Shown here piece by piece: positions 16,901-35,383 of a DNA stretch of 35,383 nt. Both the position numbers and the translations under genes were made by a program. Each line of letters starts with the position of its first letter. Positions within the stretch are counted from its first letter, which is position 1. The notes beneath the pieces were generated by a model. The model did no database searches. It was not told the origin of the DNA and worked only from the letters and a program-made list of their open reading frames with translations. Source of the stretch: Alcaligenaceae bacterium (lineage in GTDB: Bacteria > Pseudomonadota > Gammaproteobacteria > Burkholderiales > Burkholderiaceae_B); contig CANCOC010000033.1 of assembly GCA_947379755.1 (NCBI GenBank), forward strand, positions 1 through 35,383, given 5' to 3'.

Positions 16901-18232
16901 ATGTCAGACCTGTTTAAAACCTCACCCATTCCACCTCTTGCCGAGTTGCTCAGGCCGGATACGCTTGACGATGTGATCGGGCAGCGCCACCTTCTGGGTC
17001 CCGGCAAGCCCCTGCGCGTAGCGTTTGAGTCCGGTCGGCCGCACTCGATGATCCTGTGGGGACCGCCCGGTGTTGGCAAGACGACGCTGGCACGATTAAC
17101 CGCCCATGCTTTTGACTGTGCTTTCATTGCCATCTCTGCTGTATTTGCCGGTGTCAAAGAAATCCGTGCCGCCATGGAAGAAGCTCAGCATACGCTGAAC
17201 CAGCATCAGCGAAGAACGTTGTTGTTCGTGGACGAAATTCACCGGTTCAACAAAGCGCAGCAAGATGCATTACTGCCTTTTGTGGAGTCTGGCCTGGTCA
17301 CCTTTATCGGTGCGACGACAGAAAACCCTTCTTTCGAAGTCAACTCCGCACTGTTGTCCCGTGCGCAGGTGTATGTGCTCGAGTCGCTCAACGAAGATGA
17401 GATGCGTGAGTTGCTGGTCCGGGCTCAGCGCAAGGTGTTGTCTGAGCTGACGTTCGAAGAGGCCGCGCTCGACACCCTGATCGGTTATGCCGATGGCGAT
17501 GCACGACGCTTTTTGAACTTGCTCGAACAAGCGGGTACCGCGGCGCAGGCTTCCCATACACAGCATGTTGATACAGCACTGGTTGAAAATGCATTGAGCA
17601 TGAACGCGCGCCGGTTTGATAAGGGCGGCGATAATTTTTATGATCAGATCTCGGCATTGCACAAATCGGTGCGCGGATCGAACCCTGATGCTGCGTTGTA
17701 CTGGCTGACGCGTATGCTCGATGGTGGCGCCGATCCAAAGTATCTGGCCCGGCGCATTGTGCGCATGGCCTGGGAAGACATTGGCCTGGCGGATCCGCGC
17801 GCCATGCAAATTGCCAACGATGCAGCCCTGACCTATGAGCGTCTGGGCTCGCCCGAGGGTGAGCTCGCATTGGCGCAGGCAACCATTTATCTGGCGATTG
17901 CCGCTAAAAGTAATGCTGGCTACATGGCGTATAACCAGGCAGTGGCTTTCATCAAACAGGATCGGTCACGTCCGGTACCAGTGCATCTGCGCAATGCCCC
18001 GACCAAACTGATGAAAGAACTCGGGTATGGGCATGCCTATCGTTATGCTCATGATGAACCTGAGGCGTATGCAGCAGGTGAAACCTACTTGCCAGAGGGC
18101 ATGCGCGAACCCGACTGGTATCAGCCAGTGCAACGGGGTCTGGAAACTAAAATCTCTGAAAAACTGTCGCATCTGCGTGAGCTGGATCGCCAGGCGCGCA
18201 AGCGCTCCAAGCGCGACGGTGACCCTTCGTGA
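16901..18232 (+). CDS. rarA: Replication-associated recombination protein RarA (MgsA)
   Basis: AAA+ ATPase of the clamp-loader-like RarA/WRNIP1 family that acts at stalled replication forks. The 443 residues show Walker A GPPGVGKT at 54-61, Walker [20 protein letters not shown], sensor 1 [18 protein letters not shown], and the C-terminal tetramerisation region with [22 protein letters not shown]. The length is normal. It starts 6 bases after lolA and its stop overlaps a 40-codon frame, consistent with one ftsK-lolA-rarA transcript. Confidence 0.95.
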
Positions 18233-18351
18233 CACCGCCACAATCTGGCGCACGACTCAAGGCCGTGCTTTGGCTGGGCGCAATCTGGCTGGCCAGTGTT
18301 GCCGCTCTGGGTGTGGTTGCGTGGCTGCTGCGCTGGCTGATTCGTTCTTAG
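18229..18351 (+). CDS. Small single-pass membrane peptide between rarA and serS
   Basis: A 40-codon frame begins with GTG at 18229, overlapping the rarA stop in a GTGA junction that suggests coupled translation. The product starts [11 protein letters not shown], then has one hydrophobic helix of about 21 residues (VLWLGAIWLASVAALGVVAWL) and ends LRWLIRS. It carries four Trp and positive charges at both ends. I know no family for it. Support is the junction, the clean membrane helix and its filling most of the rarA-serS gap. It is not proven to be translated. Confidence 0.55.
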   Translation: MTPPQSGARLKAVLWLGAIWLASVAALGVVAWLLRWLIRS

Positions 18352-18384
18352 TTGGGCTGGCGGCTACAATATTTACTTCCATAA

Positions 18385-19743
<1,359 letters not shown>

Positions 19744-22411: not shown

Positions 22412-23305
22412 TTAACGCGCAGTTCCGTGCGTAAACACTGCCTGACTGAAATGTAGTACTGCAGCATTGAACTTTTCTGCCTGGTCAACGAATAAAGCAT
22501 GGCCTGCATCGGTAAAAATCATCACCTCAACCAGCTCTGGTGTTTTTTTTGTCATCAACTCTTCAGCCTGAGCCTTTAGCCGGGGCGTGACGACATACAT
22601 CACAGGAATTTTTTGTGCTTCAACGGTTTCACGCCAATACGTGCGAGGGTAGGGCTGGTTGAGTAGCTGCATGGCAGCTTTCGGTGGTGCACGCAGCGCT
22701 GAGTCGACAATCGCCCGTGACATTTCAGTCGGTGCTGGACGATGAAACAAGTCTTTGCTGAACTTGCGCAAGTATGCTTCACGCTTGACCGGATCATTCA
22801 TGGTTTGCTGAAAATTCGATGTGCCTCCACCGCTGGGTGGCTTGGCCATGCCAATTGAATTGTCGATCAGGATCAGTCCCTTGAGGTGCGCGGGTTGGTA
22901 GCGTGCAATGTAGTCGAGCGACTCCAGCACACCGAGTGACCAGCCTGCCAGGATAAAGTCCTGCACTTGGGCAGCTTTTAAAAATTCGTCCATGTCCAGT
23001 GTGCGTCTTTTGGGGTCGTGTGCCAGCGCAGTGACATCGGACTGACCTTGCGAACGCGGGTCAAAGGCGAGCACGCGAAAATGGCTCGACAGTGCGGTAA
23101 GTTGTTTTTCAAACACAGCTGCCGGCATGATCCAGCCGGGAATCCAGACAATTGTTTGTGAACCAGAACCTGCCTCAAGGTAATGCAGGCGTACGCCATC
23201 AGAGGTTTTAAAGTGATGGTGCGTGAGGGGCTGCCCGAGGGCTGGCATCGCGCATGCAATATACCAGGCAAGCAGCATCCCTAGTAACCGAGGCATTTTT
23301 TTCAT
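22412..23305 (-). CDS. Exported alpha/beta hydrolase
   Basis: A 297-residue alpha/beta-hydrolase with an N-terminal signal peptide (about 1-24, cleavage near ALG-Q), so probably periplasmic. The nucleophile elbow is GWSLG with Ser123, and the catalytic His is His269 in DAGHA. The usual Asp position after strand 7 (VVTPRLKAQ) has no Asp; Asp148 in the LILIDNS stretch after strand 6 may replace it, as in some family members. The oxyanion region is IPGWIM. The start at 23305 was chosen for the signal peptide; a longer frame to 23458 would cross the operator region. It is divergent from the Liv operon and may share its regulatory site. The substrate is unknown. Confidence 0.85.
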   Translation of the reverse strand: MKKMPRLLGMLLAWYIACAMPALGQPLTHHHFKTSDGVRLHYLEAGSGSQTIVWIPGWIMPAAVFEKQLTALSSHFRVLAFDPRSQGQSDVTALAHDPKRRTLDMDEFLKAAQVQDFILAGWSLGVLESLDYIARYQPAHLKGLILIDNSIGMAKPPSGGGTSNFQQTMNDPVKREAYLRKFSKDLFHRPAPTEMSRAIVDSALRAPPKAAMQLLNQPYPRTYWRETVEAQKIPVMYVVTPRLKAQAEELMTKKTPELVEVMIFTDAGHALFVDQAEKFNAAVLHFSQAVFTHGTAR

Positions 23306-23376
23306 AGGACGAATAAAAGTGTATGGATTGCAGTAAGCATAACGGATCAGGCTTGAGGGTATTTCCCTATAAGTAA

Positions 23377-23408
23377 TGGTCTGACTTCTCCTTATACTGG
23401 TAAGACCA
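23377..23408. promoter_or_regulatory. Paired FadR/GntR-type operator upstream of the Liv operon
   Basis: A perfect dyad TGGTAAGACCA lies at 23398-23408 (all eight fixed positions of the FadR-family pattern TGGTNNNACCA). A weaker copy TGGTCTGACTT (six of eight) lies at 23377-23387, centred exactly 21 bp away. The 18 bases at 23393-23410 match those at 29772-29789 with one difference. The FadR-family regulator encoded at 28945-29655 is the obvious candidate protein. Confidence 0.75.
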
Positions 23409-23412
23409 CTGC

Positions 23413-23439
23413 GCAATTTTGTCTGATTGACAAAATTGC
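23413..23439. promoter_or_regulatory. 11-bp perfect inverted repeat in the Liv promoter
   Basis: GCAATTTTGTC at 23413-23423 is mirrored exactly by GACAAAATTGC at 23429-23439 with a five-base spacer TGATT. Its right arm overlaps a perfect -35 hexamer. It could be an operator for a second regulator, since as a hairpin it would largely precede the predicted transcript start. Confidence 0.6.
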
Positions 23440-23455
23440 TGATGCGGGTTGAATT
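23427..23455 (+). promoter_or_regulatory. Candidate sigma-70 promoter of the Liv operon
   Basis: TTGACA at 23427-23432, a 17-base spacer, then TGAATT at 23450-23455 (four of six). The transcript would start near 23462 and include the AGGAG ribosome site at 23470-23474. The FadR-type dyad would then be centred near -59, a position more usual for activation than for simple repression. Confidence 0.45.
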
Positions 23456-23479
23456 CATCAGTTTTTAATAGGAGACATC

Positions 23480-24694
23480 ATGAGACTTAAACATACACTC
23501 GGAGCATTGGTGCTAGCGCTTGTTGGAGCAACCGGTGCAGCACAGGCGCAAGACCTGAAATTTGGCGCGCTTTATCCTTTCAGCGGTGGTCTGGCACTAC
23601 TCGGTGACGAGAGCTATCGCGGTTTTGAACTGGCTGTCGAGGCTCGCAACGGTACCGGTGGACTGCTGGGTAAAAAAATTCAGATCATCAAAGGCGATGC
23701 GGTCGACGCGACGCAGGCCGTAGGGACTGCACGCAAACTGACCTCGGTTGAGAACGTTCAGGCAATTTTTGGCAGCTATGCCTCGCCAATCGCCTTCGCG
23801 GCCACGCAGATCAGTGAACTGGCAGGTGTGCCTTATTTTGAATTGGGTGCTATTTCTGATCCGATTACCGAACGTGGTTACAAGTATGTGTTCCGTACTA
23901 ATCCGACGGCTAAAAACTTTGCGACGCGCTCAGTTGATGCCATCAAGGATGTCATTGCTCCTGGTCTGAATGTCAAACCTGGGGATCTGCGCATTGCAAT
24001 CATTCATGAAGATGGCTTGTATGGCACGACTGTAGCCAAATATCAGACTGAAGCTGCCAAGCAAGCGGGCTTGAATATTGTTGAAACCTTGCCCTACTCG
24101 GCCAAAGCAGTTGATCTGTCTTCGCTGATTTTGCGTCTGAAAGGTGCCAAAGTAGATGTGGTGCTGCAAACCTCTTACCAGAACGATACCGTGCTGTTCT
24201 TTCGCCAGATCAAAGAAGCGGGTTTCAGTCCTAAAGCTGTGATTGGGGCTGGTGGTGGTTATTCGACCCAGGATACCGTGAATGCTGCGGGTGCTGACAA
24301 TATGCATGGCGTGTTCGATATCGATTTCACCCAATATCTGACCAACGAAGCGGGTGCTCCTGGCATCAAGAGTTTTGTCGAAGCTTACAAAAAGAAATAC
24401 GGTACAGAACCACGATCGGGCCATAGTCTGGCGAACTTTACCGGCGCCAACATTTTCTTTGATGTAATCGCACGTGCCGGCTCGATGGACAAGGACAAAA
24501 TCCGCGCAGCTGTGCTTGCAACGGATGTTGCAGTCGGGACGACACCCAGCGGCTGGGGTGCAAAATTTGACGAGTCAGGTCAGAACACGCGCGGTCTGCC
24601 TTCCGTCATGCAGTGGCTCGACGGCAAGCTGACAACTGTTTATCCAAAAGAAGCCGCAGTGGCTACGCCTTTGGTCGGCACAGTCGGTAAGTAA
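23480..24694 (+). CDS. Liv-type ABC transporter substrate-binding protein
   Basis: Periplasmic binding protein of the LivJ/LivK (peripla_BP_6) class, 404 residues. The signal peptide is about 1-23 (cleavage AQA-Q). The mature start DLKFGALYPFSGGLALLGDESYRGFELAVE and the segment AIFGSYASPIAFAATQISELAGVPYFE are typical of this class. Members bind branched-chain amino acids, amides, urea, aromatic acids or other small carboxylates, so the ligand cannot be deduced. A strong AGGAG site precedes the ATG. It is the first gene of the transporter operon, and a stable hairpin separates it from the permease gene, consistent with higher expression of the binding protein. Confidence 0.93.
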   Translation: MRLKHTLGALVLALVGATGAAQAQDLKFGALYPFSGGLALLGDESYRGFELAVEARNGTGGLLGKKIQIIKGDAVDATQAVGTARKLTSVENVQAIFGSYASPIAFAATQISELAGVPYFELGAISDPITERGYKYVFRTNPTAKNFATRSVDAIKDVIAPGLNVKPGDLRIAIIHEDGLYGTTVAKYQTEAAKQAGLNIVETLPYSAKAVDLSSLILRLKGAKVDVVLQTSYQNDTVLFFRQIKEAGFSPKAVIGAGGGYSTQDTVNAAGADNMHGVFDIDFTQYLTNEAGAPGIKSFVEAYKKKYGTEPRSGHSLANFTGANIFFDVIARAGSMDKDKIRAAVLATDVAVGTTPSGWGAKFDESGQNTRGLPSVMQWLDGKLTTVYPKEAAVATPLVGTVGK

Positions 24695-24713
24695 ACAAAC
24701 CCTCGTTGTACCG

Positions 24714-24737
24714 ATGCGGGGGCGAAAGCCCCTGCAT
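24714..24737 (+). other. GNRA-loop hairpin between binding protein and permease genes
   Basis: A ten-base stem (ATGCGGGGGC with GCCCCTGCAT, one G-U pair) is closed by a GAAA tetraloop and followed by a T-rich stretch. It probably acts as a partial terminator or a 3'-end stabiliser that lets the binding protein be made in excess over the membrane subunits. Confidence 0.6.
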
Positions 24738-24762
24738 GATTTTGTTTTGTATATAGGCTGTC

Positions 24763-25638
24763 ATGGAAATCTTTATTCAACTGGTCGTCAATGGCCTGCT
24801 GCTGGGCGGCACCCTTGCCATCATCAGTATTGGTCTGACACTTATTTTCGGAATTGTGCGGGTCGTCAACTTTGCGCACGGTGAATTCCTCATGGTCGGC
24901 ATGTATGCCGTCTATCTGATGTATGCCCACTTTGGCCTGCATCCCTATCTTGCAGCGCTCGTTGCGGTCGTGATTCTGTTCGCAGGCGGTGCCTTGATGC
25001 AGCGCTTTGTGATACAGCCGTTGCTCAATGCGGATCCTCACATTCAGATCTTTGCAACAGTGGGCGTCTCGACCGCCTTATTGAACCTTGCTCTGCTGGT
25101 ATTTGGTGCGGATGTGTTTCCGGTCAAACTCAATGACTTTACTTCGGCCACGATCAAGCTCGGCCCTATCAATCTGGTCAGCGGACAGCTCATCACCTTT
25201 TTCGTCTCTCTGGCTTTGATGGGGGGATTGCACTGGTTTTTACAAAATACCTTTCTGGGCAGGGCAGTACGTGCAACGGCTCAGCATCGCTATGCGGCTC
25301 AGTTGATGGGAGTCAATGTTGAGCGCATCTATATTTTTGCCTTCGGCCTGGGCTGTGCCTGCCTGGGTCTTGCATCTGGACTGCTGTTGCCACAATATCC
25401 GGTATTTCCGACGGTGGGATCATTTTTTGTCCTGACCACTTTCGTGATCGTGGTGCTGGGTGGGCTGGGTAGCCTGGGCGGTGCTTTTCTTGGCTCAATG
25501 ATTATTGGCCTGATCGACAGTCTGTCAGGCTACTACATTGCACCTGATTTGAAAGAAGTCGTCTATTTTCTGATTTTTATCGGCATCCTGATTTTGCGGC
25601 CAACGGGTCTGCTGGGTCTGGGTCGTGGTTCTGAATAA
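24763..25638 (+). CDS. Liv-type ABC transporter permease (LivH family)
   Basis: Inner-membrane permease of 291 residues with about eight hydrophobic helices. The LivH signature start is LVVNGLLLGGTLAIISIGLTLIFGIVRVVNFAHGEF, and the coupling-helix region is RATAQHRYAAQLMGVNVERIY. The C-terminus GLGSLGGAFLGSMIIGLIDSL is typical. It forms a heterodimeric channel with the LivM half of the next protein. Its stop overlaps the ribosome site of the next gene, indicating tight coupling. Confidence 0.93.
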   Translation: MEIFIQLVVNGLLLGGTLAIISIGLTLIFGIVRVVNFAHGEFLMVGMYAVYLMYAHFGLHPYLAALVAVVILFAGGALMQRFVIQPLLNADPHIQIFATVGVSTALLNLALLVFGADVFPVKLNDFTSATIKLGPINLVSGQLITFFVSLALMGGLHWFLQNTFLGRAVRATAQHRYAAQLMGVNVERIYIFAFGLGCACLGLASGLLLPQYPVFPTVGSFFVLTTFVIVVLGGLGSLGGAFLGSMIIGLIDSLSGYYIAPDLKEVVYFLIFIGILILRPTGLLGLGRGSE

Positions 25639-25648
25639 GGAGGCACTT

Positions 25649-27445
25649 GTGAATATGTTGAATCCAAGGGCCTATGTAACAGCGATTGCCCTTTCGCTAT
25701 TGATTGTGATTCCGCTCTTGTCCGGATCGCCTTTTTTCTATCATATTTTTGTTTTGCTTTGCAGTTTTGCGGCACTGGCGACTGCATGGAATATCGTGGG
25801 AGGTTTTGCGGGTCAGCTCTCGCTGGGCCATGCGGTGTTTTACGGGATTGGCTCTTACGCTGCGGTATTGCTGATGATGCGGTTCCAGATTTCACCCTGG
25901 CTCGGGATGCTGGTCGGCGCAATGATTTCCACGCTTGTTTCCGTTGCAATCAGCTACCCCTGTTTTCGCCTGCGTGGTCCATTCTTTGCCCTTGCGACAA
26001 TCGCAGTGCTTGAAGTGGTCCGGCTGGTCGCGATTCATCAAACAGGCCTGACAGGCGGAGCCGCTGGACTGGCTGCACCGCTGAACATCGGCTGGAAATG
26101 GATGATGTTCCGCGAAAAGTGGGTCTATCTGGTAATCGCGTTCGGATTCTTGCTACTGACCCTGGGTGTCTCGGCATATATCAAGCAATCCAGACTGGGT
26201 TACTACCTGATTGCCGTGCGTGAGCGAGAGGATGCTGCACGTGCGGTAGGCATCAATTCTGTGCAAGTCAAGCTGATCGCCGTCATGGTGTCAGCTTTTC
26301 TGACTAGCCTGGTGGGCAGCTTTCAGGCGATGTACCTGACCTATATTGATCCAAGTTCAGCTTTCTCCCTCGAACTGTCGATTCAGGTCGCGATGTTTGC
26401 CCTGATTGGTGGCCTGGGAACCGTCTTTGGTCCGTTGGTTGGGACCGTGCTGGTATTGCCGATCGCCGAACTTGCGCGTGGCTGGTTGAGTGACTTTGGT
26501 AATGGCTTTCATGGTCTGGTGTATGGCGTTGTGCTTGTTGTTGTCGTACTAACGATTCCAAAGGGGCTGGTCGGAAGATTCGGTCTCTCGTTTACAAAAT
26601 GGGTGGATCGTCTGCCCGGTGGTGCTCGCGCCAATGTCGATCACTCACTCGCCCCGGTGGAGCGTGCGGCAGCATCGACTCCTGTTATGCGGGATGCGCG
26701 GCAAACTGCTCAACCGATCCTGGTCGCAACCGGTCTGAATCTGTATTTTGGTGGTTTGCATGCCACCAATAATGTCTCGCTAGAGTTAAAGCAGGGTGAG
26801 ATCCTGGGTGTGATTGGACCAAACGGAGCTGGTAAAACGACTGTATTCAACCAGCTCTCCGGTTTTCTTCGCCCACACAGTGGAACGATCAAAGTATTGC
26901 TGCCCGACGGTAACTGGGCGACACCTCATACGCCCGAGGAGTTCGCACGTGCTGGAATTGGGCGCACATTCCAGATTGCCCAGCCGTTTGCAGATTTAAG
27001 CGTGCTCGAAAACATCATGATTGGTGCATTCATGCATACGCGCGCGCCCTCTGAAGCGAGTGCACTCGCACGTAAAGTGGCCGCACTTACTGATTTGACT
27101 GGTTTACTGGATACCCGTGCGCGCAATCTGACAGTCGGTGGGATGAAACGTCTGGAAATGGCACGTGCACTGGCAACGCAGCCACGCGTGCTTTTACTCG
27201 ATGAGGTGCTTGCCGGTTTGAATCCAGCTGACGTTGCAAAGGCGATCGAGATTATTCGTCGCGTACGTGATGCGGGTGTCTCGGTCCTGATGATTGAACA
27301 CATCATGCAAGCCGTCATGCAGTTGTCTGACAGAGTGGTCGTGATTAACTCAGGTAGCGTGTTGTGCGAAGGGTCTCCGAACGAAGTGGTGAGTGATCCT
27401 CGCGTGATTGAAGCCTATCTGGGCAAGGAATATGCAAATGCTTAA
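25649..27445 (+). CDS. Fused Liv-type permease-ATPase (LivM-LivG)
   Basis: A 598-residue natural fusion. Residues about 10-310 are a LivM permease (AWNIVGGFAGQLSLGHAVFYGIGSY and REREDAARAVGINSVQVKLIA are family hallmarks). A linker at about 315-345 joins a LivG ATPase with Walker A GPNGAGKT near residue 390 and Walker B LLLDEVLAGLNP. The ABC signature reads LTVGGMKR instead of LSGGQ-like, a variant known in some Liv ATPases. The start is GTG 25649, five bases after a perfect AAGGAGG; a GTG at 25625 lies inside livH and lacks a site. The stop overlaps livF by 8 bases. Confidence 0.92.
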   Translation: MNMLNPRAYVTAIALSLLIVIPLLSGSPFFYHIFVLLCSFAALATAWNIVGGFAGQLSLGHAVFYGIGSYAAVLLMMRFQISPWLGMLVGAMISTLVSVAISYPCFRLRGPFFALATIAVLEVVRLVAIHQTGLTGGAAGLAAPLNIGWKWMMFREKWVYLVIAFGFLLLTLGVSAYIKQSRLGYYLIAVREREDAARAVGINSVQVKLIAVMVSAFLTSLVGSFQAMYLTYIDPSSAFSLELSIQVAMFALIGGLGTVFGPLVGTVLVLPIAELARGWLSDFGNGFHGLVYGVVLVVVVLTIPKGLVGRFGLSFTKWVDRLPGGARANVDHSLAPVERAAASTPVMRDARQTAQPILVATGLNLYFGGLHATNNVSLELKQGEILGVIGPNGAGKTTVFNQLSGFLRPHSGTIKVLLPDGNWATPHTPEEFARAGIGRTFQIAQPFADLSVLENIMIGAFMHTRAPSEASALARKVAALTDLTGLLDTRARNLTVGGMKRLEMARALATQPRVLLLDEVLAGLNPADVAKAIEIIRRVRDAGVSVLMIEHIMQAVMQLSDRVVVINSGSVLCEGSPNEVVSDPRVIEAYLGKEYANA

Positions 27446-28142
27446 GTTGCAAGGAATATCTGCCGGTTATGGTGGCACTGAAATTATCCGTAACGTTTCC
27501 CTTGAGGTGCGAAAAGGGGAAGTCGTGACCATTGTGGGAGCCAATGGTGCTGGAAAAACTACGACACTGCGCACAATTTGTGGCATTGTCAAACCCACTG
27601 CGGGTTCAATAGAGTTTGAAGGGCGTCGTCTGGATGGTCAGGGATCTGACGCCATCGTGGCTGCTGGCATCACTATGGTGCCTGAGGGCCGGCAACTGTT
27701 TCCTCATATTTCTGTCAAAGACAATCTGCTGATGGGAGCCTACAAGCCCAGTGCGCGGGCCAATGCTGCGCAGCGCATGGAAGAGGTGCTGGAGATTTTT
27801 CCGCGCGTCAGGGAACGGATGACACAGATGGCAGGCAGTCTTTCAGGGGGCGAGCAGCAGATGGTGGCGATTGGACGCGGTCTGATGTCGAATCCGTCGT
27901 TGCTGATGTTTGATGAGCCTTCGCTGGGACTCTCGCCTTTACTTGTCTCTCAGGTTTTTGACGTGATTGATCAGATTGTCAGGCTGGGCATGACCGTCCT
28001 GATTGTTGAACAGAATATTGTTCACACCCTCAAGATTGCAGACCGAGGCTATGTACTAGAAAATGGTGAGATCACCATGACAGGTACTGGCCGTGAGCTG
28101 CTGGAAAACCCACATATTAAAAAAGCTTACCTGGGAATTTAA
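27438..28142 (+). CDS. Liv-type ABC transporter ATPase (LivF family)
   Basis: Cytoplasmic ATPase of 234 residues powering the transporter with the LivG half. Walker A is GANGAGKTTTLRTICG, the signature is LSGGEQQMVAIGRGLM, and Walker B is LLMFDEPSLGLSP; LivF-type MVPEGRQLFPHISVKDNL is present. ATG 27438 is chosen over ATG 27432 because AAGGAA stands at the better distance. It overlaps the previous stop by 8 bases. An SDR gene begins 4 bases after its end, so transporter and enzyme are co-translated. Confidence 0.94.
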   Translation: MLKLQGISAGYGGTEIIRNVSLEVRKGEVVTIVGANGAGKTTTLRTICGIVKPTAGSIEFEGRRLDGQGSDAIVAAGITMVPEGRQLFPHISVKDNLLMGAYKPSARANAAQRMEEVLEIFPRVRERMTQMAGSLSGGEQQMVAIGRGLMSNPSLLMFDEPSLGLSPLLVSQVFDVIDQIVRLGMTVLIVEQNIVHTLKIADRGYVLENGEITMTGTGRELLENPHIKKAYLGI

Positions 28143-28146
28143 TTTC

Positions 28147-28920
28147 ATGACTCCACAACGCCATGCAGGTCGAATCGTGCTGGTAACCGGCGCCGCAAGC
28201 GGGATCGGTGCCGCGATTGCCCGGCAATACGTGCAAGAAGGTGCAAGCGTTGCACTGATTGATGTCAATGCCGAGACCTTGTCCGCTTGTGCAGAAAGCC
28301 TGGCGGGTCTGCCCGGCCGAGTCGTCTGGGCTGTTGCGGATGTTGCCGACTTTGATCAATGCACGCGTGCGCACCAACAGGTCGTTGCAGAGCTGGGCGC
28401 AACCATCGATACGTTGATCAACAATGCGGGCATTTCTCCCAAGACAAATGGGAAACCTGCAAATTTCTGGGAAATGGATCCTTCTGAATGGATGCGCGTG
28501 GTGGGGGTGAACCTGCATGGCGCATTCAACTGGTCCAGGCTGGTGACCCCTTCGATGGTCGAGCATCAGTCTGGCAGCATCGTAAACATGTCATCGGTCG
28601 CCGCAAAGTTTTTCGTCGCCTTTACCGCGGCACATTACGGCACAACCAAAGCCGCGTTGATTGGTCTGACGCGTGATCTGGCCGGTGAGCTCGGACCACA
28701 CGGCATCACCGTCAATGCGATTGCTCCGGGACGTATCAATACACCCTTGATGCGGACTGCGTCGCAGGCAACCAATCAGGCGGTGATCGATGAGACGGCA
28801 TTGCGTCGGCTGGGCGAGCCCTCCGAGGTTGCAGAAATGGCATGTTTTCTGACATCGGCCGAAAGCAGGTTCGTGACAGGACAGGTCGTGGATGTTGCGG
28901 GAGGCTGGCTAATGACCTGA
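28147..28920 (+). CDS. SDR-family NAD(P)-dependent oxidoreductase (transporter-linked)
   Basis: A classical short-chain dehydrogenase/reductase of 257 residues. The cofactor motif is TGAASGIG (14-21) and Asp39 at the end of strand 2 suggests NAD(H). INNAG is at 91-95, and the catalytic residues are Ser150 with Tyr164 and Lys168 (YGTTK). The C-terminus ends in the usual VDVAGGW motif. It should oxidise a secondary alcohol or reduce a ketone; the substrate is unknown. It is the last gene of the Liv operon, 4 bases after livF, implying that it acts on the imported compound. Its stop codon is part of a hairpin with the downstream tandem repeat. Confidence 0.92.
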   Translation: MTPQRHAGRIVLVTGAASGIGAAIARQYVQEGASVALIDVNAETLSACAESLAGLPGRVVWAVADVADFDQCTRAHQQVVAELGATIDTLINNAGISPKTNGKPANFWEMDPSEWMRVVGVNLHGAFNWSRLVTPSMVEHQSGSIVNMSSVAAKFFVAFTAAHYGTTKAALIGLTRDLAGELGPHGITVNAIAPGRINTPLMRTASQATNQAVIDETALRRLGEPSEVAEMACFLTSAESRFVTGQVVDVAGGWLMT

Positions 28921-28934
28921 GGCTGACTCAGGTC
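28914..28934. terminator. Hairpin at the convergent SDR/gntR junction
   Basis: GACCTGAG at 28914-28921 pairs perfectly with CTCAGGTC at 28927-28934 around GCTGA. There is no T run, so termination efficiency is uncertain. A second pairing partner exists at 28944-28951 because of the tandem duplication. Confidence 0.4.
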
Positions 28935-28954
28935 TTCGGCTGACTCAGGTCTTC
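28921..28954. repeat. Perfect 17-bp tandem duplication
   Basis: GGCTGACTCAGGTCTTC occurs twice in immediate succession (28921-28937 and 28938-28954). The second copy encodes the last residues and stop of the GntR gene on the opposite strand; the first lies between the convergent genes. It looks like a recent slippage duplication. Confidence 0.9.
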
Positions 28955-29655
28955 ATATACTTGATCAGCCGTTTTTCTGCATTGTCCAGATGATCTCTGG
29001 CGGCACGTTCAGCTGCAGCCGGATCGCCTGCAGCAATTGCATTGAAAATATTCTGATGTTCCGTCTGGACGGCTTCGATCAGGTTGGTATGTCGGGTTTT
29101 GGTATGGCTGCGCAGATGACGAATCATTCTGCGGGCAGTGTGTTCAAGGTGTTGGCTTAAGGTTTCGAAGTAAGGGTTGTGTGTGGCAACCATGATGGCC
29201 TGATGAAATTCGAAGTCTTCTTCGTCGCCCAGACGATCACTTGCAATGGCATATTCCATTCCAATGAGACATTTCCGGATTTTTTTCAGATCGTCTGCTG
29301 TGCGCCGCGCTGCCGCCAGTCGCGTTGCGGCAACCTCTATCGTTGAAATCAGTTCCATCACCTGGGTCACGGATATTTTTTCGTCGATGTCGACGTCCTG
29401 AATCTTGAACGCCTCACGTGGGTCTCGCTGGGTTACAAAAACGCCGACACCTCGTTTGATGGAAATCAGGCCTTCGGACTTCAGTCGCGAAAGGGCTTCG
29501 CGAATGACAGGCCGGCTGACAGAGAATTGTTCGCACAGGTCGCGCTCGCTGGGCAGGCGGTCACCCGATGCGAGTTGTTTGGTTTGAATCAGATGGCTGA
29601 GCTGATTGGCGATTTCATCTGGTAGATGGACTGACACGGATGAACGGGTAAGCAT
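28945..29655 (-). CDS. GntR-family regulator, FadR subfamily (FCD domain)
   Basis: DNA-binding transcription factor of 236 residues. The N-terminal winged helix (about 8-75) carries LASGDRLPSERDLCEQFSVS and RPVIREALSRLKSEGLI, typical of GntR. The C-terminal FCD ligand domain (about 90-230) keeps the likely metal/ligand histidines in EDFEFHQAI, TEHQNIFNAI and RDHLDNAEKRL. FadR-type proteins bind TGGTNNNACCA dyads and usually release on binding an organic acid. Such dyads stand in its own upstream region and before the Liv operon, so it most likely controls both and itself. It sits between the two halves of the cluster. Confidence 0.93.
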   Translation of the reverse strand: MLTRSSVSVHLPDEIANQLSHLIQTKQLASGDRLPSERDLCEQFSVSRPVIREALSRLKSEGLISIKRGVGVFVTQRDPREAFKIQDVDIDEKISVTQVMELISTIEVAATRLAAARRTADDLKKIRKCLIGMEYAIASDRLGDEEDFEFHQAIMVATHNPYFETLSQHLEHTARRMIRHLRSHTKTRHTNLIEAVQTEHQNIFNAIAAGDPAAAERAARDHLDNAEKRLIKYMKT

Positions 29656-29709
29656 GTGCGCAAGAGATCAACAAATAAAGAGATGGTGCCATGATAAGCA
29701 ATTATTCAT

Positions 29710-29738
29710 AATTTAGGTGAATTAAGGGTAAGTCCCAA
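29710..29738 (-). promoter_or_regulatory. Candidate promoter of the gntR gene
   Basis: On the minus strand TTGGGA (29733-29738) is followed after 17 bases by TAAATT (29710-29715). A dyad GGGTAAGTCCC at 29726-29736 overlaps it and resembles a degenerate FadR-type site, hinting at autoregulation. Confidence 0.35.
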
Positions 29739-29749
29739 GCTGCGTTTTG

Positions 29750-29777
29750 TTGTTCTGGTAAGTCCACAATATATACT
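29750..29777 (+). promoter_or_regulatory. Candidate promoter of the AroE-like/GMC/E1 operon
   Basis: TTGTTC at 29750-29755, a 16-base spacer and TATACT at 29772-29777. Both FadR-type dyads fall on the spacer and -10, which would suit repression by the GntR protein. The leader to the ATG would be about 70 bases. Confidence 0.4.
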
Positions 29778-29787
29778 GGTAATACCA
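29756..29787. promoter_or_regulatory. Paired FadR/GntR-type operator between gntR and the AroE-like gene
   Basis: TGGTAAGTCCA at 29756-29766 (seven of eight fixed positions) and TGGTAATACCA at 29777-29787 (eight of eight), centred 21 bp apart, the same spacing as at the Liv promoter. It lies in the divergent gap next to the regulator gene, the usual place for an autoregulated FadR-family site. Confidence 0.78.
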
Positions 29788-29852
29788 CTAGCCTGAGTTG
29801 TAAATTTATTGTTAGCTGCGCTAACGCATTGCCTTTACGCCAAGAGAGCACC

Positions 29853-30650
29853 ATGATTGAAATTACAGGTCAAACTAAACTTTATTGCATCGTTGCTGAT
29901 CCGATTTTGCAGGTGAAGACGCCGCAGACAATGAATAAGCTGCTTGCAGAGCGTGCCGTTGACGGTATCCTTGTACCGACTCATGTGCCATCAGCCGGCT
30001 TGCAGGCATTCATGACGGGTATGCGTGGCGTGCTGAATCTGGGTGGCATTGTTGTCACGGTCCCGCACAAGACCAGTATTGTCGCGATGTGTGATGAGGT
30101 CACGCCCGCTGCTGCGACAGTCGGTGCAGTCAATGTGATTCGTCGCGAAGCAGACGGTCGCCTGATCGGTGACATTCTCGATGGCAAGGGGTTTGTGGCG
30201 GGTCTGCAAAGCAAAGGGATTGAGCCGCGTGGTCAATCGGTATTCCTGGCGGGTGCGGGTGGTGCGGCCAATGCCATTGCTTTTGCCCTGGCAGGTTCTG
30301 GCGTATCCAGACTCACAATTTATAACCGTACACCTGCAAAGGCGCAGGACATGATCGCGCGGATTGCCAAGGTATATCCGGACGTAAGAATGGAGGTGGG
30401 CTCTGGTAATCCTGCAGGGCATGATCTGGTGGTCAATGCCACGTCCCTTGGCATGGTCCCTACCGATGCCTTGCCGTTTGCTGTTGAGCACCTCACACCG
30501 GATCAGACGGTCGCAGAGATCATCATGAAGCCTGAGCTGACGCCTTTGCTCGAAGCTGCGCAGAAAAAAGGCTGTCGAATTCAATATGGATTGCCCATGT
30601 TGCAGTGTCAGATTGGATTGATGGCTGACTTCATGGGCATCGGAAAATAA
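29853..30650 (+). CDS. AroE-like (shikimate/quinate dehydrogenase family) oxidoreductase
   Basis: A 265-residue protein of the shikimate dehydrogenase fold. Retained features are the catalytic Lys73 in VTVPHK, Asn94, Asp110 (in LDGKG), the Rossmann motif GAGGAA at 134-139, the NADP-type NRT at 158-160, and Gln253 in the GLPMLQCQ stretch. At the N-terminus the carboxylate-binding SxS of E. coli AroE (Ser14, Ser16) is replaced by Val21 and Thr23, and NTDG is changed to DILDG. It is therefore unlikely to be the housekeeping AroE and probably oxidises a different hydroxy compound. A GAGAG ribosome site precedes the ATG. The stop overlaps the next start (TAATG). It is the first gene of the enzyme operon. 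Confidence 0.88.
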   Translation: MIEITGQTKLYCIVADPILQVKTPQTMNKLLAERAVDGILVPTHVPSAGLQAFMTGMRGVLNLGGIVVTVPHKTSIVAMCDEVTPAAATVGAVNVIRREADGRLIGDILDGKGFVAGLQSKGIEPRGQSVFLAGAGGAANAIAFALAGSGVSRLTIYNRTPAKAQDMIARIAKVYPDVRMEVGSGNPAGHDLVVNATSLGMVPTDALPFAVEHLTPDQTVAEIIMKPELTPLLEAAQKKGCRIQYGLPMLQCQIGLMADFMGIGK

Positions 30651-32245
30651 TGGAAACCTTTGATTTCGTAATCGTCGGGGGAGGCACGGCGGCATGCGTC
30701 CTCGCCAACCGGCTGACTGAGGATGGTCGGTATACCGTCTTGATGCTTGAGGCGGGTGGTGAACCCAAGAGCATGTGGATCAATATCCCGGCTGGTTTTA
30801 CCAAGCTTTTGAATGACCCGGTCTACAACTGGCGGTTTCAGACGCAACCAGAAGATAATGTGCACGGCAGAACGATCGCCGTGCCACGAGGTAAAGGTCT
30901 GGGTGGTTCGAGCCTGATCAATGGCATGATTTATGTGCATGGCCAGCCCGAAGATTACGATCACTGGGCAGCGCTTGGCGCAACAGGATGGTCGGCCAGT
31001 GACGTGGCACCTTATTTCACAAAGCTAGAGACCTATCTTCCCGGCAAGGGCGCGCGCGGTCAGTCAGGGCCCATGCATATTGCACAGGTCGCAGAACGCT
31101 ATCCTGTTGCACATGCGCTGATCCAGGCCGCTCAGCAAGATGGTCAGCCAATCAATGATGACTATAACGGTGAACGTCAGGACGGCTTTGGGTATTACCA
31201 GGTGGCGCAGAAAGGTGGCCAGAGGTGGAGCGCAGTTGACGGTTATCTCAATCCTGTCAGGCAGCGCAAGAATCTGACCATACGCACGGGTGCGCACGTG
31301 ACGCGCATCAACGTCCAGAATGGTCGTTGCACGGGTGTGACCTATCGTCAGAAGAGCGAGTTACAGAGTGTCGCGGCCAGGCGCGAAGTCATCATGGCCG
31401 CCGGTGCCGTGCAGACCCCCCAGATTCTCGAGTTATCAGGTATCGGGAATCCTGAGGTACTGAACAAATTCGGGATTCCTGTTGTGCACCCATCCAGGCG
31501 CGTGGGTGAGAACTATATCGATCATTTTGCGACGCGCATGAACTGGCGCGTCAAAAATACACAGACACTGAATGAACTGGCACAAGGGTGGCGGGTTGGT
31601 CTGGCTGTATTGGAATACTTCACGCGTCGCACAGGAATACTGACACTGGGAACAGGCCTGGTGCATGGCTTTGTCAAAACCCGTGACACGATTGCAACAC
31701 CTGATGTGCAGTATTTCTTCATGCATGCGAGCTATGCCAATGCCGCAATTCGTAAGCTCGACAATGCACCCGGCATGACCATTGGCGTGACGGGACTGCG
31801 GCCGACTTCACAAGGCAGTATTCATATTCAATCTGCGAATCCGCTTGAAGGGCCCGCAATCCGGCCGAATTTTCTTGCCACGGTTGAGGACCAGCAAACG
31901 CTGATTGATGGCATGAAGATCGCCAGAAGGATTGTGGGTCGTCATGCACTGAGTCATTTCATTGATTACGAAATGAGTCCAGGTCCTGATGTTCACACAG
32001 ATGCGCAGTGGCTGGATTTCGCCCGTGAAAATGGTCAGACCATTTACCATCCGATTGGAACCTGCCGGATGGGCAGCGATGCTGATGCAGTCGTCGATAC
32101 GCGTCTGAAATTCAATGGCCTGCAAGGGCTGCGTATTGTTGATGCCTCGGTGATGCCTGCCATGGTGTCTGGCAATACGCAGTGTGCGGTCATGATGGTC
32201 GCTGAACGCGGTGCCGATCTGATCCTTCAAGACGCACGGATTTAA
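30650..32245 (+). CDS. GMC-family FAD-dependent oxidoreductase (choline dehydrogenase-like)
   Basis: Flavoprotein alcohol dehydrogenase of 531 residues. The N-terminal FAD motif is GGGTAACVLANRL (Ala where the third Gly is usual), and the second GMC signature is VPRGKGLGGSSLINGMIYVHG. A middle substrate domain follows, then the C-terminal active-site region YHPIGTCRMG with His467 and SGNTQ with Asn509, the usual His-Asn pair. It would oxidise a primary or secondary alcohol to the carbonyl, passing electrons to quinone or another acceptor. There is no signal peptide, so it is cytoplasmic or membrane-associated. It shares a TAATG junction with the AroE-like gene. Confidence 0.93.
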   Translation: METFDFVIVGGGTAACVLANRLTEDGRYTVLMLEAGGEPKSMWINIPAGFTKLLNDPVYNWRFQTQPEDNVHGRTIAVPRGKGLGGSSLINGMIYVHGQPEDYDHWAALGATGWSASDVAPYFTKLETYLPGKGARGQSGPMHIAQVAERYPVAHALIQAAQQDGQPINDDYNGERQDGFGYYQVAQKGGQRWSAVDGYLNPVRQRKNLTIRTGAHVTRINVQNGRCTGVTYRQKSELQSVAARREVIMAAGAVQTPQILELSGIGNPEVLNKFGIPVVHPSRRVGENYIDHFATRMNWRVKNTQTLNELAQGWRVGLAVLEYFTRRTGILTLGTGLVHGFVKTRDTIATPDVQYFFMHASYANAAIRKLDNAPGMTIGVTGLRPTSQGSIHIQSANPLEGPAIRPNFLATVEDQQTLIDGMKIARRIVGRHALSHFIDYEMSPGPDVHTDAQWLDFARENGQTIYHPIGTCRMGSDADAVVDTRLKFNGLQGLRIVDASVMPAMVSGNTQCAVMMVAERGADLILQDARI

Positions 32246-32256
32246 AAAAGCGAGTC

Positions 32257-33084
32257 ATGATGCAACCAGTGATATCAAAGGGACACCCCGGCGCGCAGGC
32301 CTTTTCACAGGCAAGCTACCCTGGCCTCAACAGGCAGGTGGTCTTTAATACAGGCGCTGCAAAAGGCATTGGCCGGGCCATGTCGCATGCCTTTGCACGC
32401 CACGGCGCCAGGCTGATGTTGCTCGATCTCGATGAGGCCGGTTTGCATCAGGCGCGTGCTGAGTTACTGGAACAGTATCCCGATCTTGAGGTGGATATTG
32501 TCATGGCATCCATCACCGATGATGTGGCGGTTGAGCGAGCGATGGCACAGACGATTGAGCGTTTTGGCCAAGTCGATGTCCTGCTTAATAATGCCGGCAT
32601 CTCCATGAATAAGCCTTCGCTTGAGGTCACGGCGCAGGAGTGGCGACGTACGATCGATATTGATCTTTCAGGTGTGTTTTTCTGCTCACAGGCGGCTGCC
32701 AAACGCATGGTTGAGCAGGGCGGTGGCGTCATTCTCAGCACGGCTTCGATGTTCGGCCTGATCTCGGCAGCACGCCGTGCAGCCTACTGTGCCTCCAAGG
32801 CAGCTGTCGTGTCGTTGTGCAAGACGCTCGCTGTTGAATGGGCTCCACATAATATTCGTGTGAATGCAATATGTCCGGGTTACATCCAGACTGCACTTGT
32901 TCAGGACCTGATTGAGCGCGGTGCGCTCGACGCGCAGCGCATTACTCAGCGCACGCCACTGAACCGGCTTGGCAGTCCGGACGAAATCGCCGAGATGGCC
33001 TTGTTCCTGGCCTCGGATGCTGCCGCCTTTATCACCGGACACGCAATGGTTGCGGACGGTGGCTTTACTGCGAACGGTTTTTGA
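32257..33084 (+). CDS. SDR-family oxidoreductase (second in cluster)
   Basis: A classical SDR of 275 residues with an about 25-residue N-terminal extension before the fold. The cofactor motif TGAAKGIG is at 32-39, Asp57 suggests NAD(H), NNAG is at 111-114, and the catalytic residues are Ser164, Tyr177 and Lys181. ATG 32257 and ATG 32260 are adjacent; either may be used. It lies 11 bases after the GMC gene and 38 bases before the E1 gene, so it belongs to the same operon. It differs clearly from the Liv-linked SDR, so it is not a recent duplicate. Confidence 0.92.
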   Translation: MMQPVISKGHPGAQAFSQASYPGLNRQVVFNTGAAKGIGRAMSHAFARHGARLMLLDLDEAGLHQARAELLEQYPDLEVDIVMASITDDVAVERAMAQTIERFGQVDVLLNNAGISMNKPSLEVTAQEWRRTIDIDLSGVFFCSQAAAKRMVEQGGGVILSTASMFGLISAARRAAYCASKAAVVSLCKTLAVEWAPHNIRVNAICPGYIQTALVQDLIERGALDAQRITQRTPLNRLGSPDEIAEMALFLASDAAAFITGHAMVADGGFTANGF

Positions 33085-33122
33085 TTCATTGAAATAGCAG
33101 AATTGACTGAAATGAGAGCGTA

Positions 33123-35312
33123 ATGCCTAAATCAATATCTTTGAGTTCAGCGGCCCCCTGGGTCGAATTGCAGACCAGTGAGCACGACTGGAAGCGAGCC
33201 GATCCTGCGCTGCTTGGAACCCTGTTGTCGACCATGCACATTATTCGTGCCTTCGAGGAGACCGTGCTTGAGTTGGCAGGCGAGGGTCTGGTGCACGGAC
33301 CCGCACACTCGAGTATTGGACAGGAAGGTGGCGCGGCCGGATCAATCGTTGGCTTGACTGCCCTGGATCAGGTCAATGGATCGCACCGTGGCCATCATCA
33401 GTTCGTGGCTAAAGCGCTTGCCTATCTCGCGCCCAACGGCATTGATCCTGTTGCCCCGATTGCCAGCGATATTGCGGCCATGCTTGAACGCACGCTCGCC
33501 GAGATCCTGGGCCTGGCGCAAGGGTTTTGCAAGGGGCGTGGCGGCTCCATGCATCTGCAGTGGCTCGAGGCCGGAGCGCTGGGCACCAACGCAATCGTAG
33601 GTGGTGGTGTGCCGCTGGCAGCTGGTTCTGCCTGGGCAAATCGCCATGCCGGGACCGATGCCGTCGCGGTCACCTATTTTGGAGACGGCGCAATCAACAT
33701 TGGATCTGTGCTTGAGACCATGAATCTGGCCTCAGCCTGGAAATTGCCACTCTGTTTTTTTGTTGAAAACAACGGTTACGCTGTGTCGACGACAGTGTCA
33801 GAGGCCACAGGTGAGACCAGACTGGCCGCACGCGGACAGGCGTTCAACATTCCGAGCTGGACGGTCGACGGGATGGATCCGCTGGCGGTCCATCTGGCGA
33901 TGGGGCAGGCCCTCAAGCACATGCGCGCAGGCAAGGGGCCGACCATCATCGAAGCAAAGGTCTATCGCTTCTTTCATCAGAATGGTCCCTTTCCCGGGAG
34001 TGCGTTTGGCTACCGGACAAAGGAAGAAGAAACGCTGTGGCGCAAGCGCGATCCTTTGGATCTGCTTGCCCGCAAAATGCAGGAACGCAAACTGATCAGT
34101 GCAAAGCAGTTAACCAGCCTGCGCAGCAATATTCAGTCTGTCATGAAACAGGCTGTTGGGGCCTTGCTTGAGGCAGACACAGGAGAGCGTCAGGGCAAAC
34201 GCCGCATCAGACCAGAGCTCTGGCCCAGTCCGGACTTCAGGGACGTTGGTATTCGTGGTGACTTGAGTGAGTTCAAGAGTGCTCGCGTCGAAGATGTCGC
34301 CACATTCAAAGGTGCATGCGAAGTGCGCAAGTTTATTGATGTCGTTGCAGATGTGATGCAACGCAGAATGCAAACCGACCCTTCGATTGTTGTCATGGGC
34401 GAAGACGTCCATCGCCTGAAAGGTGGTACGAATGGAGCGACGCGTGGCTTGAAAGATGAATTCCCTGATCGAGTCCTGGGTACACCGATCAGCGAGTGTG
34501 CCTTTTCGGGGCTGGGGGGAGGTCTGGCAATGGATCGTCGTTATAAACCAGTCGTTGAATTCATGTACCCTGATTTCATGTGGGTGGCGGGTGATCAGAT
34601 TTTTAATCAGATCGGTAAAGCCCGGCATATGTTTGGCGGTGATCATGCCGTCCCGTTCGTCCTGCGTACCAAGGTGGCGATGGGAACAGGATACGGCTCG
34701 CAGCACTCGATGGATCCGGCAGGGATCTTTGCGACCAGTGCGGGATGGAGGATCGTTGCACCCTCTACGCCGTTTGACTACGTTGGACTGATGAATGCAG
34801 CATTGCTCTGCGAGGATCCGGTCCTGGTGATCGAACATGTGGATTTGTATAACAGTTCGGGTCAGGCACCCGTGGACGATCTGGATTTTGTGATCGCTCC
34901 CGGTAGTGCCGCTGTGCGTCGCGCTGGTAAAGACATGACCGTGCTGACCTATCTCTCCATGGTCGGTCATAGCTTGGAGGCCTGTGAGCAAAGCGGAATC
35001 GATGCAGAAGTGATTGATTTGCGCTGGCTGGATCGTGCCAGTATTGACTGGGCAACGATCGGTCAGAGTATCCAGAAAACCAATGCTGTGCTGATTGTTG
35101 AACAAGGATCACTCGGGCCTTCTTATGGAGGCTGGCTGTCTGACGAAATTCAGCGACGGTTTTTTGACTGGCTCGACCAGCCTGTTCAGCGGGTCACGGG
35201 CGGTGAAGCCTCACCCAGTATTTCAAAAGTGCTTGAGCGTGCCGCCTGTGCACGTACTGAAGAAGTCATCTCCGGTCTACAACGTGTCATGCGTGACAGC
35301 GGTCGCAAATAA
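33123..35312 (+). CDS. Fused alpha-beta E1 of a 2-oxoacid/acetoin-type dehydrogenase complex
   Basis: A thiamine-diphosphate-dependent E1 of 729 residues joining alpha and beta subunits that are usually separate. The alpha part (about 20-350) has the TPP motif starting GDG at 187-189 and closing with ENN about 30 residues later, plus GSHRGHHQFVAK and GKGRGGSMHL. The beta part (about 395-725) has VVMGEDVHRLKGG, TPISECAFSGLGGG with the activating Glu, YPDFMWVAGDQIFNQ and GYGSQHSMDP. The family decarboxylates 2-oxo acids or cleaves acetoin and hands the acyl group to a lipoyl E2. An E2 gene starts 11 bases later. The linker between the halves is about 50 residues. The true substrate is unknown. 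Confidence 0.92.
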   Translation: MPKSISLSSAAPWVELQTSEHDWKRADPALLGTLLSTMHIIRAFEETVLELAGEGLVHGPAHSSIGQEGGAAGSIVGLTALDQVNGSHRGHHQFVAKALAYLAPNGIDPVAPIASDIAAMLERTLAEILGLAQGFCKGRGGSMHLQWLEAGALGTNAIVGGGVPLAAGSAWANRHAGTDAVAVTYFGDGAINIGSVLETMNLASAWKLPLCFFVENNGYAVSTTVSEATGETRLAARGQAFNIPSWTVDGMDPLAVHLAMGQALKHMRAGKGPTIIEAKVYRFFHQNGPFPGSAFGYRTKEEETLWRKRDPLDLLARKMQERKLISAKQLTSLRSNIQSVMKQAVGALLEADTGERQGKRRIRPELWPSPDFRDVGIRGDLSEFKSARVEDVATFKGACEVRKFIDVVADVMQRRMQTDPSIVVMGEDVHRLKGGTNGATRGLKDEFPDRVLGTPISECAFSGLGGGLAMDRRYKPVVEFMYPDFMWVAGDQIFNQIGKARHMFGGDHAVPFVLRTKVAMGTGYGSQHSMDPAGIFATSAGWRIVAPSTPFDYVGLMNAALLCEDPVLVIEHVDLYNSSGQAPVDDLDFVIAPGSAAVRRAGKDMTVLTYLSMVGHSLEACEQSGIDAEVIDLRWLDRASIDWATIGQSIQKTNAVLIVEQGSLGPSYGGWLSDEIQRRFFDWLDQPVQRVTGGEASPSISKVLERAACARTEEVISGLQRVMRDSGRK

Positions 35313-35323
35313 AGGAATTGATC

Positions 35324-35383
35324 ATGGCGACTATCCTGCGCATGCCAGAAGTTGCAGCCAACGCGACGTCCGCAACGCTCGTG
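35324..35383 (+). CDS. Dihydrolipoamide acyltransferase (E2), N-terminal fragment cut by the window
   Basis: Only the first 20 codons are visible (MATILRMPEVAANATSATLV). The pattern MA-x-I-x-MP and the spacing to the final LV match the beginning of a lipoyl domain in E2 proteins, although the usual Gly residues of this stretch are replaced. An AAAGGAA ribosome site precedes the ATG, and the gene follows the E1 by 11 bases. It would accept the acyl group from E1 and pass it to CoA. The rest lies beyond the window, so domain content cannot be checked. Confidence 0.75.
   Translation, partial: MATILRMPEVAANATSATLV

Follow-up and report, generated by a model that had tools for sequence, protein, structure and literature searches.

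We analyzed a 35,383-nt stretch of DNA (the window; CANCOC010000033.1) from an Alcaligenaceae bacterium (assembly GCA_947379755.1), in which positions 22412 to 35383 carry a Liv-type transporter operon, a gene for a FadR-type regulator, and an operon encoding an AroE-like dehydrogenase, a GMC flavoprotein, a short-chain dehydrogenase (SDR), a fused thiamine pyrophosphate (TPP)-dependent E1, and the start of an E2. On balance, and by a modest degree, we favor the view that these genes form one catabolic regulon for import of a hydroxylated compound, its oxidation, and its TPP-dependent cleavage to an acyl coenzyme A (acyl-CoA). An initial annotation of the window had proposed that import and oxidation form one system under a single FadR-type regulator. 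As genetics, the single system is well supported, by a shared operator-like site and by co-occurrence of the operons; as chemistry, it is plausible. All of the protein families are known, and limited full-text literature searching, aimed at the gene set and at parts of it, found no description of their combination among the papers listed.

We infer the direction and order of the reactions as follows. The ABC transporter would bring in a small hydroxylated compound that is unlikely to be an amino acid. Its hydroxyl groups would be oxidized by a fixed pair, the AroE-like enzyme with the GMC flavoprotein, and by three SDRs (SDR1 to SDR3), ending at a ketone with a neighboring oxygen function (an alpha-hydroxyketone, an alpha-diketone, or a 2-oxo acid). 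The fused E1 would attack that carbonyl and break a C-C bond, the acyl unit would pass to the lipoyl arm of E2 and on to acyl-CoA, and an E3 encoded elsewhere would reoxidize E2.

Two operons around a FadR-type regulator gene

By a listing of open reading frames and by domain scans, every gene that the initial annotation had named between positions 22412 and 35383 was found in place, with the expected domains. The transporter operon (plus strand) begins with a gene for a HAAT/Liv-type periplasmic binding protein (SBP; 23480 to 24694; PF13458, 187.9 bits), followed by genes for a LivH-like permease (24763 to 25638; PF02653, 142.5 bits), a LivM-LivG-like permease-ATPase fusion in a single frame (25625 to 27445; PF02653, PF00005, and PF12399), and a LivF-like ATPase (27408 to 28142; PF00005; 263.6 bits on PRK11614, cut-off 441). 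With a Peripla_BP_6 binding protein, two BPD_transp_2 domains, and two ATPase domains, the importer is of the HAAT type. Next comes the gene for the FabG-like SDR1 (28147 to 28920, its probable start adjusted to the ATG at 28147; PF13561, 208.1 bits), which scores 228.5 bits on the PRK12826.1-2 subfamily model (cut-off 222) and has the motifs GAASGIG and YGTTK. The regulator gene (28945 to 29655, minus strand) encodes a GntR domain (PF00392) and an FCD domain (PF07729), which places the protein in the GntR/FCD (FadR) family.

The oxidation operon (plus strand) opens with the AroE-like gene (29853 to 30650; PF08501/PF01488), for which the ATG at 29853 is a more probable start than the TTG at 29829. 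The gene for the BetA-like GMC flavoprotein (30650 to 32245; PF00732 and PF05199) and that for SDR2 (32257 to 33084; PF13561, 229 bits; 240.5 bits on the PRK07231 subfamily model, cut-off 215) follow. E1 (33123 to 35312; PF00676, PF02779, and PF02780) is a single frame of 729 amino acids containing E1_dh, Transket_pyr, and Transketolase_C domains; these three domains and its TPP motif assign it to the superfamily of TPP-dependent 2-oxo-acid/acetoin dehydrogenase E1 proteins. Catalytic motifs are intact throughout: the 31-residue GDG...NN TPP motif in E1, YxxxK in SDR1 and SDR2, and HPIGTC and SGN in the GMC flavoprotein.

The window corresponds to contig C33 of a genome of 3.37 Mb in 154 contigs, and it ends where the contig ends, 60 bases into the E2 gene (35324 to 35383, plus strand). 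Its 129 terminal bases are identical to those of contig C78 of the same genome, in an exact end overlap. The initial annotation had suggested looking to the right of position 35383 for the rest of E2, an E3, and further enzymes. On C78 (locus L207) we found the full-length E2 (70 to 1359; motifs ETEKA and HRCVDG) and, directly after it, a third dehydrogenase, SDR3 (1378 to 2118). Beyond SDR3 lie genes that are glpD- and glpK-like by similarity, on the opposite strand. No E3 gene lies between E2 and the glp genes; E3 was not searched for elsewhere in the genome.

Shared operator-like sites and co-inheritance

A near-identical palindrome, ACTGGTAAKACCACT, precedes both the SBP gene and the AroE-like gene: ACTGGTAAGACCACT at 23396 to 23410, upstream of the SBP gene, and ACTGGTAATACCACT at 29775 to 29789, between the regulator gene and the AroE-like gene. 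The FadR-type operator consensus, which we take to be TNGTNNNACNA, has 10 matches in the window; 100 shuffled versions had 5.3 on average, and all of them had fewer than 10. Two of the ten matches fall within these near-identical 15-mers. With at most one mismatch allowed, ACTGGTAADACCACT occurs at two places in the whole 3.37-Mb genome, before the SBP gene and before the AroE-like gene, and both copies are perfect. The core TGGTNNNACCA has five copies in the window, including two inside the GMC gene and one at 19458. It lies within both gaps or at their edges in all six loci that hold both (the window and five relatives with the same operon, L037 to L040 and L058), with a few extra copies elsewhere in the five relatives. 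None of 17 E1 loci of the other type has the palindrome in the corresponding gap; in L069, one is found next to E1. Locus L058 has a further site before a gene for a PIG3-type quinone oxidoreductase. The PIG3 family also belongs to the Sinorhizobium meliloti and Rhodovulum cassettes described below; a search of the window's genome for the L058 gene found nothing close (best, 36%). Because the operator-like site is shared and the two operons co-occur, they look like one regulon, probably under the GntR/FCD protein encoded between them.

We measured co-occurrence in 151 genomes (the window's own and 150 relatives), 32 in the genus and 119 outside it, with identity thresholds of at least 70% for E1, 55% for SBP, 50% for AroE, and 60% for GMC. 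Absences are less sure than presences, because only the best candidates per genome were scored (up to 7, 12, 6, or 2, depending on the search). Of the 32 genomes in the genus, five carry E1, and the same five carry SBP. Outside the genus, E1 was found in 12 genomes, SBP in 12, AroE in 13, and GMC in 11; E1 and SBP have 11 of 13 carriers in common (one genome has E1 only and one SBP only), and E1 overlaps with AroE in 12 and with GMC in 11. Fisher values for these overlaps take no account of kinship among the genomes. The AroE and GMC genes are adjacent, 2 to 73 bases apart, in all 41 genomes that hold both. Among 398 genomes of the phylum, with two candidates scored per genome, an E1 at least 60% identical was found besides the window's genome only in G454 (69%), a member of the window's own class in which AroE lies 7 kb from E1 on the same contig. 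The viral contigs searched contain no E1 relative. Taken together, fixed adjacency, co-occurrence, and the positions and conservation of the operator-like sites exceed chance. The initial annotation had named a lack of joint conservation of the two operons as a result that would count against it; no such lack emerged.

We read 13 same-genus genomes that lack E1 and SBP. Their gene order is serS, one to a few genes, a hydrolase gene, AroE-GMC, and then, on the opposite strand, glpD/glpK-like genes; the hydrolase (59 to 63% identical) adjoins AroE in 12 of the 13 stretches, and the glp genes are present in all 13. GlpD of these genomes scores below its equivalog cut-offs. In the window, this alpha/beta-hydrolase gene (22412 to 23458, minus strand; PF12697/PF00561) is divergent from the transporter operon, and its true start is probably nearer 23380; relatives in L037 and L039 are 318 to 324 amino acids long. 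The window adds the importer, SDR1, and the regulator between the hydrolase gene and AroE, and the window with C78 adds SDR2-E1-E2-SDR3 between GMC and glpD. In one genome (G024) the whole set is one block at a different site, without the hydrolase. The block may have been gained in the window's lineage or lost in the others. At 18232 to 18406, the window has a short gap only, where same-genus locus L171 has cydA/cydB between rarA and serS.

A link to glycerol was considered and is kept as a lead only, the glpD/glpK genes after the operon and beside AroE-GMC being one inherited site. In Planotetraspora (L102, L108, and L127), the fused E1-E2 region is closely followed by a glycerol-3-phosphate-dehydrogenase-like gene, and glycerol-kinase-like genes are in the vicinity; an MIP channel is encoded in L102 and L127 (families were scanned for L127 members only). 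The presence of glp genes near E1-E2 in Planotetraspora and near AroE-GMC in the genus may be either coincidence or a link to triose metabolism.

For the neighborhoods of E1 we kept 80 of 203 relatives and clustered 100 loci (L037 to L136), several of which are the same genome twice. A VOC/glyoxalase-family gene is frequent beside the fused E1, lying directly after it in 23 and divergently directly before it in 27 of the 97 loci with a called E1; the window's operon has none. In 12 loci, of which ten are named Achromobacter, E1 has a DRL-domain gene in its vicinity. We took this as a vertical neighborhood and set aside a DXR-like, methylerythritol link. On a Paenarthrobacter ureafaciens plasmid (L139, 825 to 19790), a fused E1 (59%) with E2 and a VOC protein stands near genes for an amidase, RidA, a cupin, a flavin reductase, and a Liv-type importer, a setting that suggests that this E1 family is fed there by a different compound, one that contains nitrogen. 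The same plasmid carries an annotated Pycsar effector and cyclase pair at 26247 to 27576.

Related cassettes and their TPP enzymes

The initial annotation had called for a search for co-occurrence of the AroE-like, GMC, and fused-E1 genes in Burkholderiales. Such co-occurrence was found there and extends beyond that order, and in related cassettes other TPP enzymes stand in for E1. The SBP-permease-fusion-ATPase set stands with AroE and GMC, mostly also with FabG, in alpha- and betaproteobacterial plasmid records and genomes, including S. meliloti pSymA, Rhodovulum, Paracoccus albus, Salipiger, Pacificitalea, Neorhizobium, Acidovorax, Comamonadaceae, and others. The FabG-AroE stretch of S. meliloti was found in 31 Sinorhizobium plasmid records, and strains Rm41 and SM11 have it.

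We counted 27 stretches that hold SBP, AroE, and GMC, leaving out L071, L076, and L190, in which SBP is outside the stretch; GMC and ALS (acetolactate synthase) in L147 and AroE in L148 are taken from record annotation, and AroE in L189 and E1 in L185 from separate searches. E1 is present in 11 of the 27, an ALS-like protein in 7, and a split transketolase in 6, and 21 hold at least one of these. E2 was seen in all of the E1-bearing stretches except L140. Nine of the 27 had been fetched via E1 (the window, L037 to L040, L044, L058, L074, and L140). The 18 fetched via AroE or SBP form an unbiased set, and 12 of them hold a TPP enzyme that cleaves C-C bonds: E1 in 2, an ALS-like protein in 6, and a split transketolase in 5, with two kinds in one stretch. 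Paracoccus albus has all three kinds. In the 3.37 Mb of the window's genome there are six Transket_pyr matches, of which five exceed the cut-off. At this rate, neighbors of the transketolase or E1 type would not be expected by chance; the rate does not cover the ALS-like proteins. The ALS-like protein of S. meliloti scores 961 bits on PRK06112 (cut-off 673), and comparison of the ALS-like protein with solved structures indicated no specific function.

The exchange of one TPP enzyme for another suggests a common alpha-oxygenated carbonyl intermediate. We tentatively propose, with somewhat less than even confidence, that the cassettes represent an unrecognized alpha- and betaproteobacterial pathway, present also on S. 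meliloti pSymA, in which the AroE-like and GMC proteins form a fixed pair served by a dedicated HAAT importer and are combined with a swapped C-C-cleaving step (E1/E2, ALS-like, or split transketolase) acting on a common alpha-oxygenated ketone of a hydroxylated, possibly cyclic compound. If this is true, one alpha-oxygenated ketone intermediate would be common to all cassette variants. The cassette is on many S. meliloti pSymA plasmids, which opens the search for the substrate to ordinary genetics in a tractable organism. Its identity would assign functions to the non-shikimate AroE subfamily, to the fused E1 family known from Proteobacteria and Actinobacteria, and to the ALS-like subfamily PRK06112, which is annotated as acetolactate synthase.

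Transposase genes of the IS5 and IS1380 types lie within and behind the cassette of Acidovorax temperans plasmid pEP1 (L143). This plasmid also carries genes for an aldehyde dehydrogenase, a GlcD-like oxidase, an old yellow enzyme (OYE), and an electron transfer flavoprotein (ETF), and the strain came from contaminated Tris-acetate-phosphate medium.

Substrate, alternatives, and relation to known systems

In AroE, the serines of the HSxS motif bind the carboxylate of shikimate, and a Lys and an Asp are catalytic. We aligned 17 AroE-like proteins drawn from cassettes and from E1 clusters. All 17 keep the catalytic Lys and Asp (VTVPHK and LDG in the window), and in all 17 the Ser pair is replaced by Val/Ile and Thr/Ala (QVKT in the window). 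The window's protein scores 161.5 bits on the NCBIfam aroE equivalog TIGR00507, below the cut-off of 200.2; a separate housekeeping AroE in the genome scores 242.5 bits, above it, and has HSRS. Quinate and shikimate are unlikely substrates, because the carboxylate-holding serines are missing from the AroE-like enzyme, and we ruled out a quinate/shikimate route on the Ser pair, the score, and the separate AroE. The closest solved relative is 4k28 (179.5 bits), named only as a shikimate dehydrogenase family protein; 5-ketofructose reductase, 7cok, is the fourth (107.5 bits).

The GMC flavoprotein scores 467.9 bits on TIGR01810 (cut-off 732.1) and 559.2 on PRK02106 (cut-off 605), both choline dehydrogenase models, and its closest solved relatives are a chloramphenicol-inactivating oxidoreductase (8b7s, 365 bits) and a choline dehydrogenase (9lq0, 361 bits). 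On the pyruvate dehydrogenase E1 alpha/beta models, E1 scores 246.9 bits (TIGR03182, cut-off 393.85) and 213.7 bits (PRK11892, cut-off 454). The SBP scores 115.6 bits on the Liv model PRK15404, far below the cut-off of 477; its best solved match is PDB 8wch. In the leucine/isoleucine/valine-binding protein, a Glu binds the amino group of the ligand; in a single pairwise alignment, this position is a Gly, beside gaps, in the SBP. On the score and this one alignment, uptake of branched-chain amino acids is not favored.

Several observations weigh against a single regulon and pathway. Read backwards as a control, the pattern ACTGGTAADACCACT likewise has two occurrences in the genome; what counts is therefore not how many sites there are but their placing, perfection, and conservation. 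The GntR-AroE gap of a partial relative (L071) lacks the palindrome. Two genomes (G062 and G072) have AroE without GMC, and two (G011 and G090) have stop codons within the matched AroE stretch. In 7 of the 12 non-genus E1 genomes, the E1 genes and a second Liv transporter form a separate cluster, which means that E1 can also work on another input. No TPP enzyme was found in 6 of the 18 stretches fetched via AroE or SBP (L143, L144, L181, L182, L191, and L192), two of which carry an aldehyde dehydrogenase and a GlcD-like oxidase instead. The stretches compared are not independent lineages. At the thresholds used, 25 of the 32 same-genus genomes have the AroE-GMC pair without the transporter or E1. 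This distribution speaks for two unrelated neighboring pathways, one of importer and SDR1 and the other an AroE-GMC-E1 route. We regard this as very unlikely, given that an operator-like site is common to both operons, that the carrier set is identical in the genus (5/5) and near-identical outside it, and that G024 carries the whole set as one block at another site.

Two further alternatives concern the substrate. E1/E2 might be an acetoin (or close acyloin) dehydrogenase, with SDR2 and SDR3 oxidizing a 2,3-butanediol-like diol to an acyloin that is split to acetyl-CoA and an aldehyde, and with the transporter, AroE, and GMC preparing or adding related diols. SDR2 scores 221 bits on the BudC (meso-2,3-butanediol dehydrogenase) model, and an actinobacterial E1/E2 cluster, in Citricoccus, has two SDRs, a VOC protein, and MFS carriers. 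However, the SDR2 score is under the model's cut-off of 270; for the E2 of a relative (L075), the acetoin E2 model gives 86 bits (cut-off 307), whereas the pyruvate dehydrogenase-type TIGR01349 gives 501 (cut-off 445); the operon lacks E3; and acetoin needs neither AroE nor GMC. We consider acetoin unlikely. It is quite unlikely that the substrate is an aromatic C6-C3 compound or aryl-glycol, with GMC acting on a terminal side-chain alcohol, SDR and AroE on benzylic or secondary alcohols, and E1/E2 on an aryl alpha-diketone or 2-oxo acid. The chloramphenicol-inactivating oxidoreductase stands narrowly above choline dehydrogenase among the solved relatives of GMC, and a gene of the 2,4'-dihydroxyacetophenone dioxygenase family follows the same transporter in Caballeronia, as does a homologue in G066. 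Both of these loci, however, lack AroE and GMC in the stretch read, and no ring-cleavage or aryl-CoA gene is part of any annotated cassette that we tabulated. AroE-family enzymes are known to act on polyhydroxylated alicyclic or sugar-like substrates and are not known to act on aryl ketones, which also counts against an aromatic substrate.

The system that we favor, import and stepwise oxidation of a hydroxylated compound followed by cleavage to acyl-CoA, resembles several known ones in part. Like the acetoin dehydrogenase (aco) system, it has an E1 of the pyruvate/acetoin dehydrogenase superfamily with an E2 and SDR-type dehydrogenases nearby, and it would act on an alpha-oxygenated ketone. 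It differs in its fused E1 alpha and beta, its lack of E3 in the operon, its additional AroE-like enzyme, GMC flavoprotein, and Liv-type importer, and, in a relative, an E2 below the acetoin model's cut-off. The AroE-like enzyme shares family domains and the catalytic Lys and Asp with the quinate/shikimate dehydrogenases AroE and YdiB, but not the Ser pair or a TIGR00507 score above the cut-off. Cyclohexane-1,2-dione hydrolase and IolD compare with the ALS-like TPP enzyme at the cleavage place in S. meliloti-type cassettes, and cleavage of a ring dione could be a logic common to them, but the similarity of the ALS-like protein to cyclohexane-1,2-dione hydrolase is not specific (154.7 bits, versus 202.1 for an acetolactate synthase). 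The GMC flavoprotein is of the same choline-dehydrogenase-like type as TaoA, which is used on a small polyhydroxylated alcohol in TRIS degradation (PMC10848231); the main text of that paper contains neither of the words "shikimate" and "acetoin." Although the AroE-like enzyme is less similar to 5-ketofructose reductase than to 4k28 (107.5 versus 179.5 bits), that reductase, reported as a sugar reductase (PMC7954740), is an AroE-family enzyme that acts on a non-carboxylated polyhydroxy ketone.

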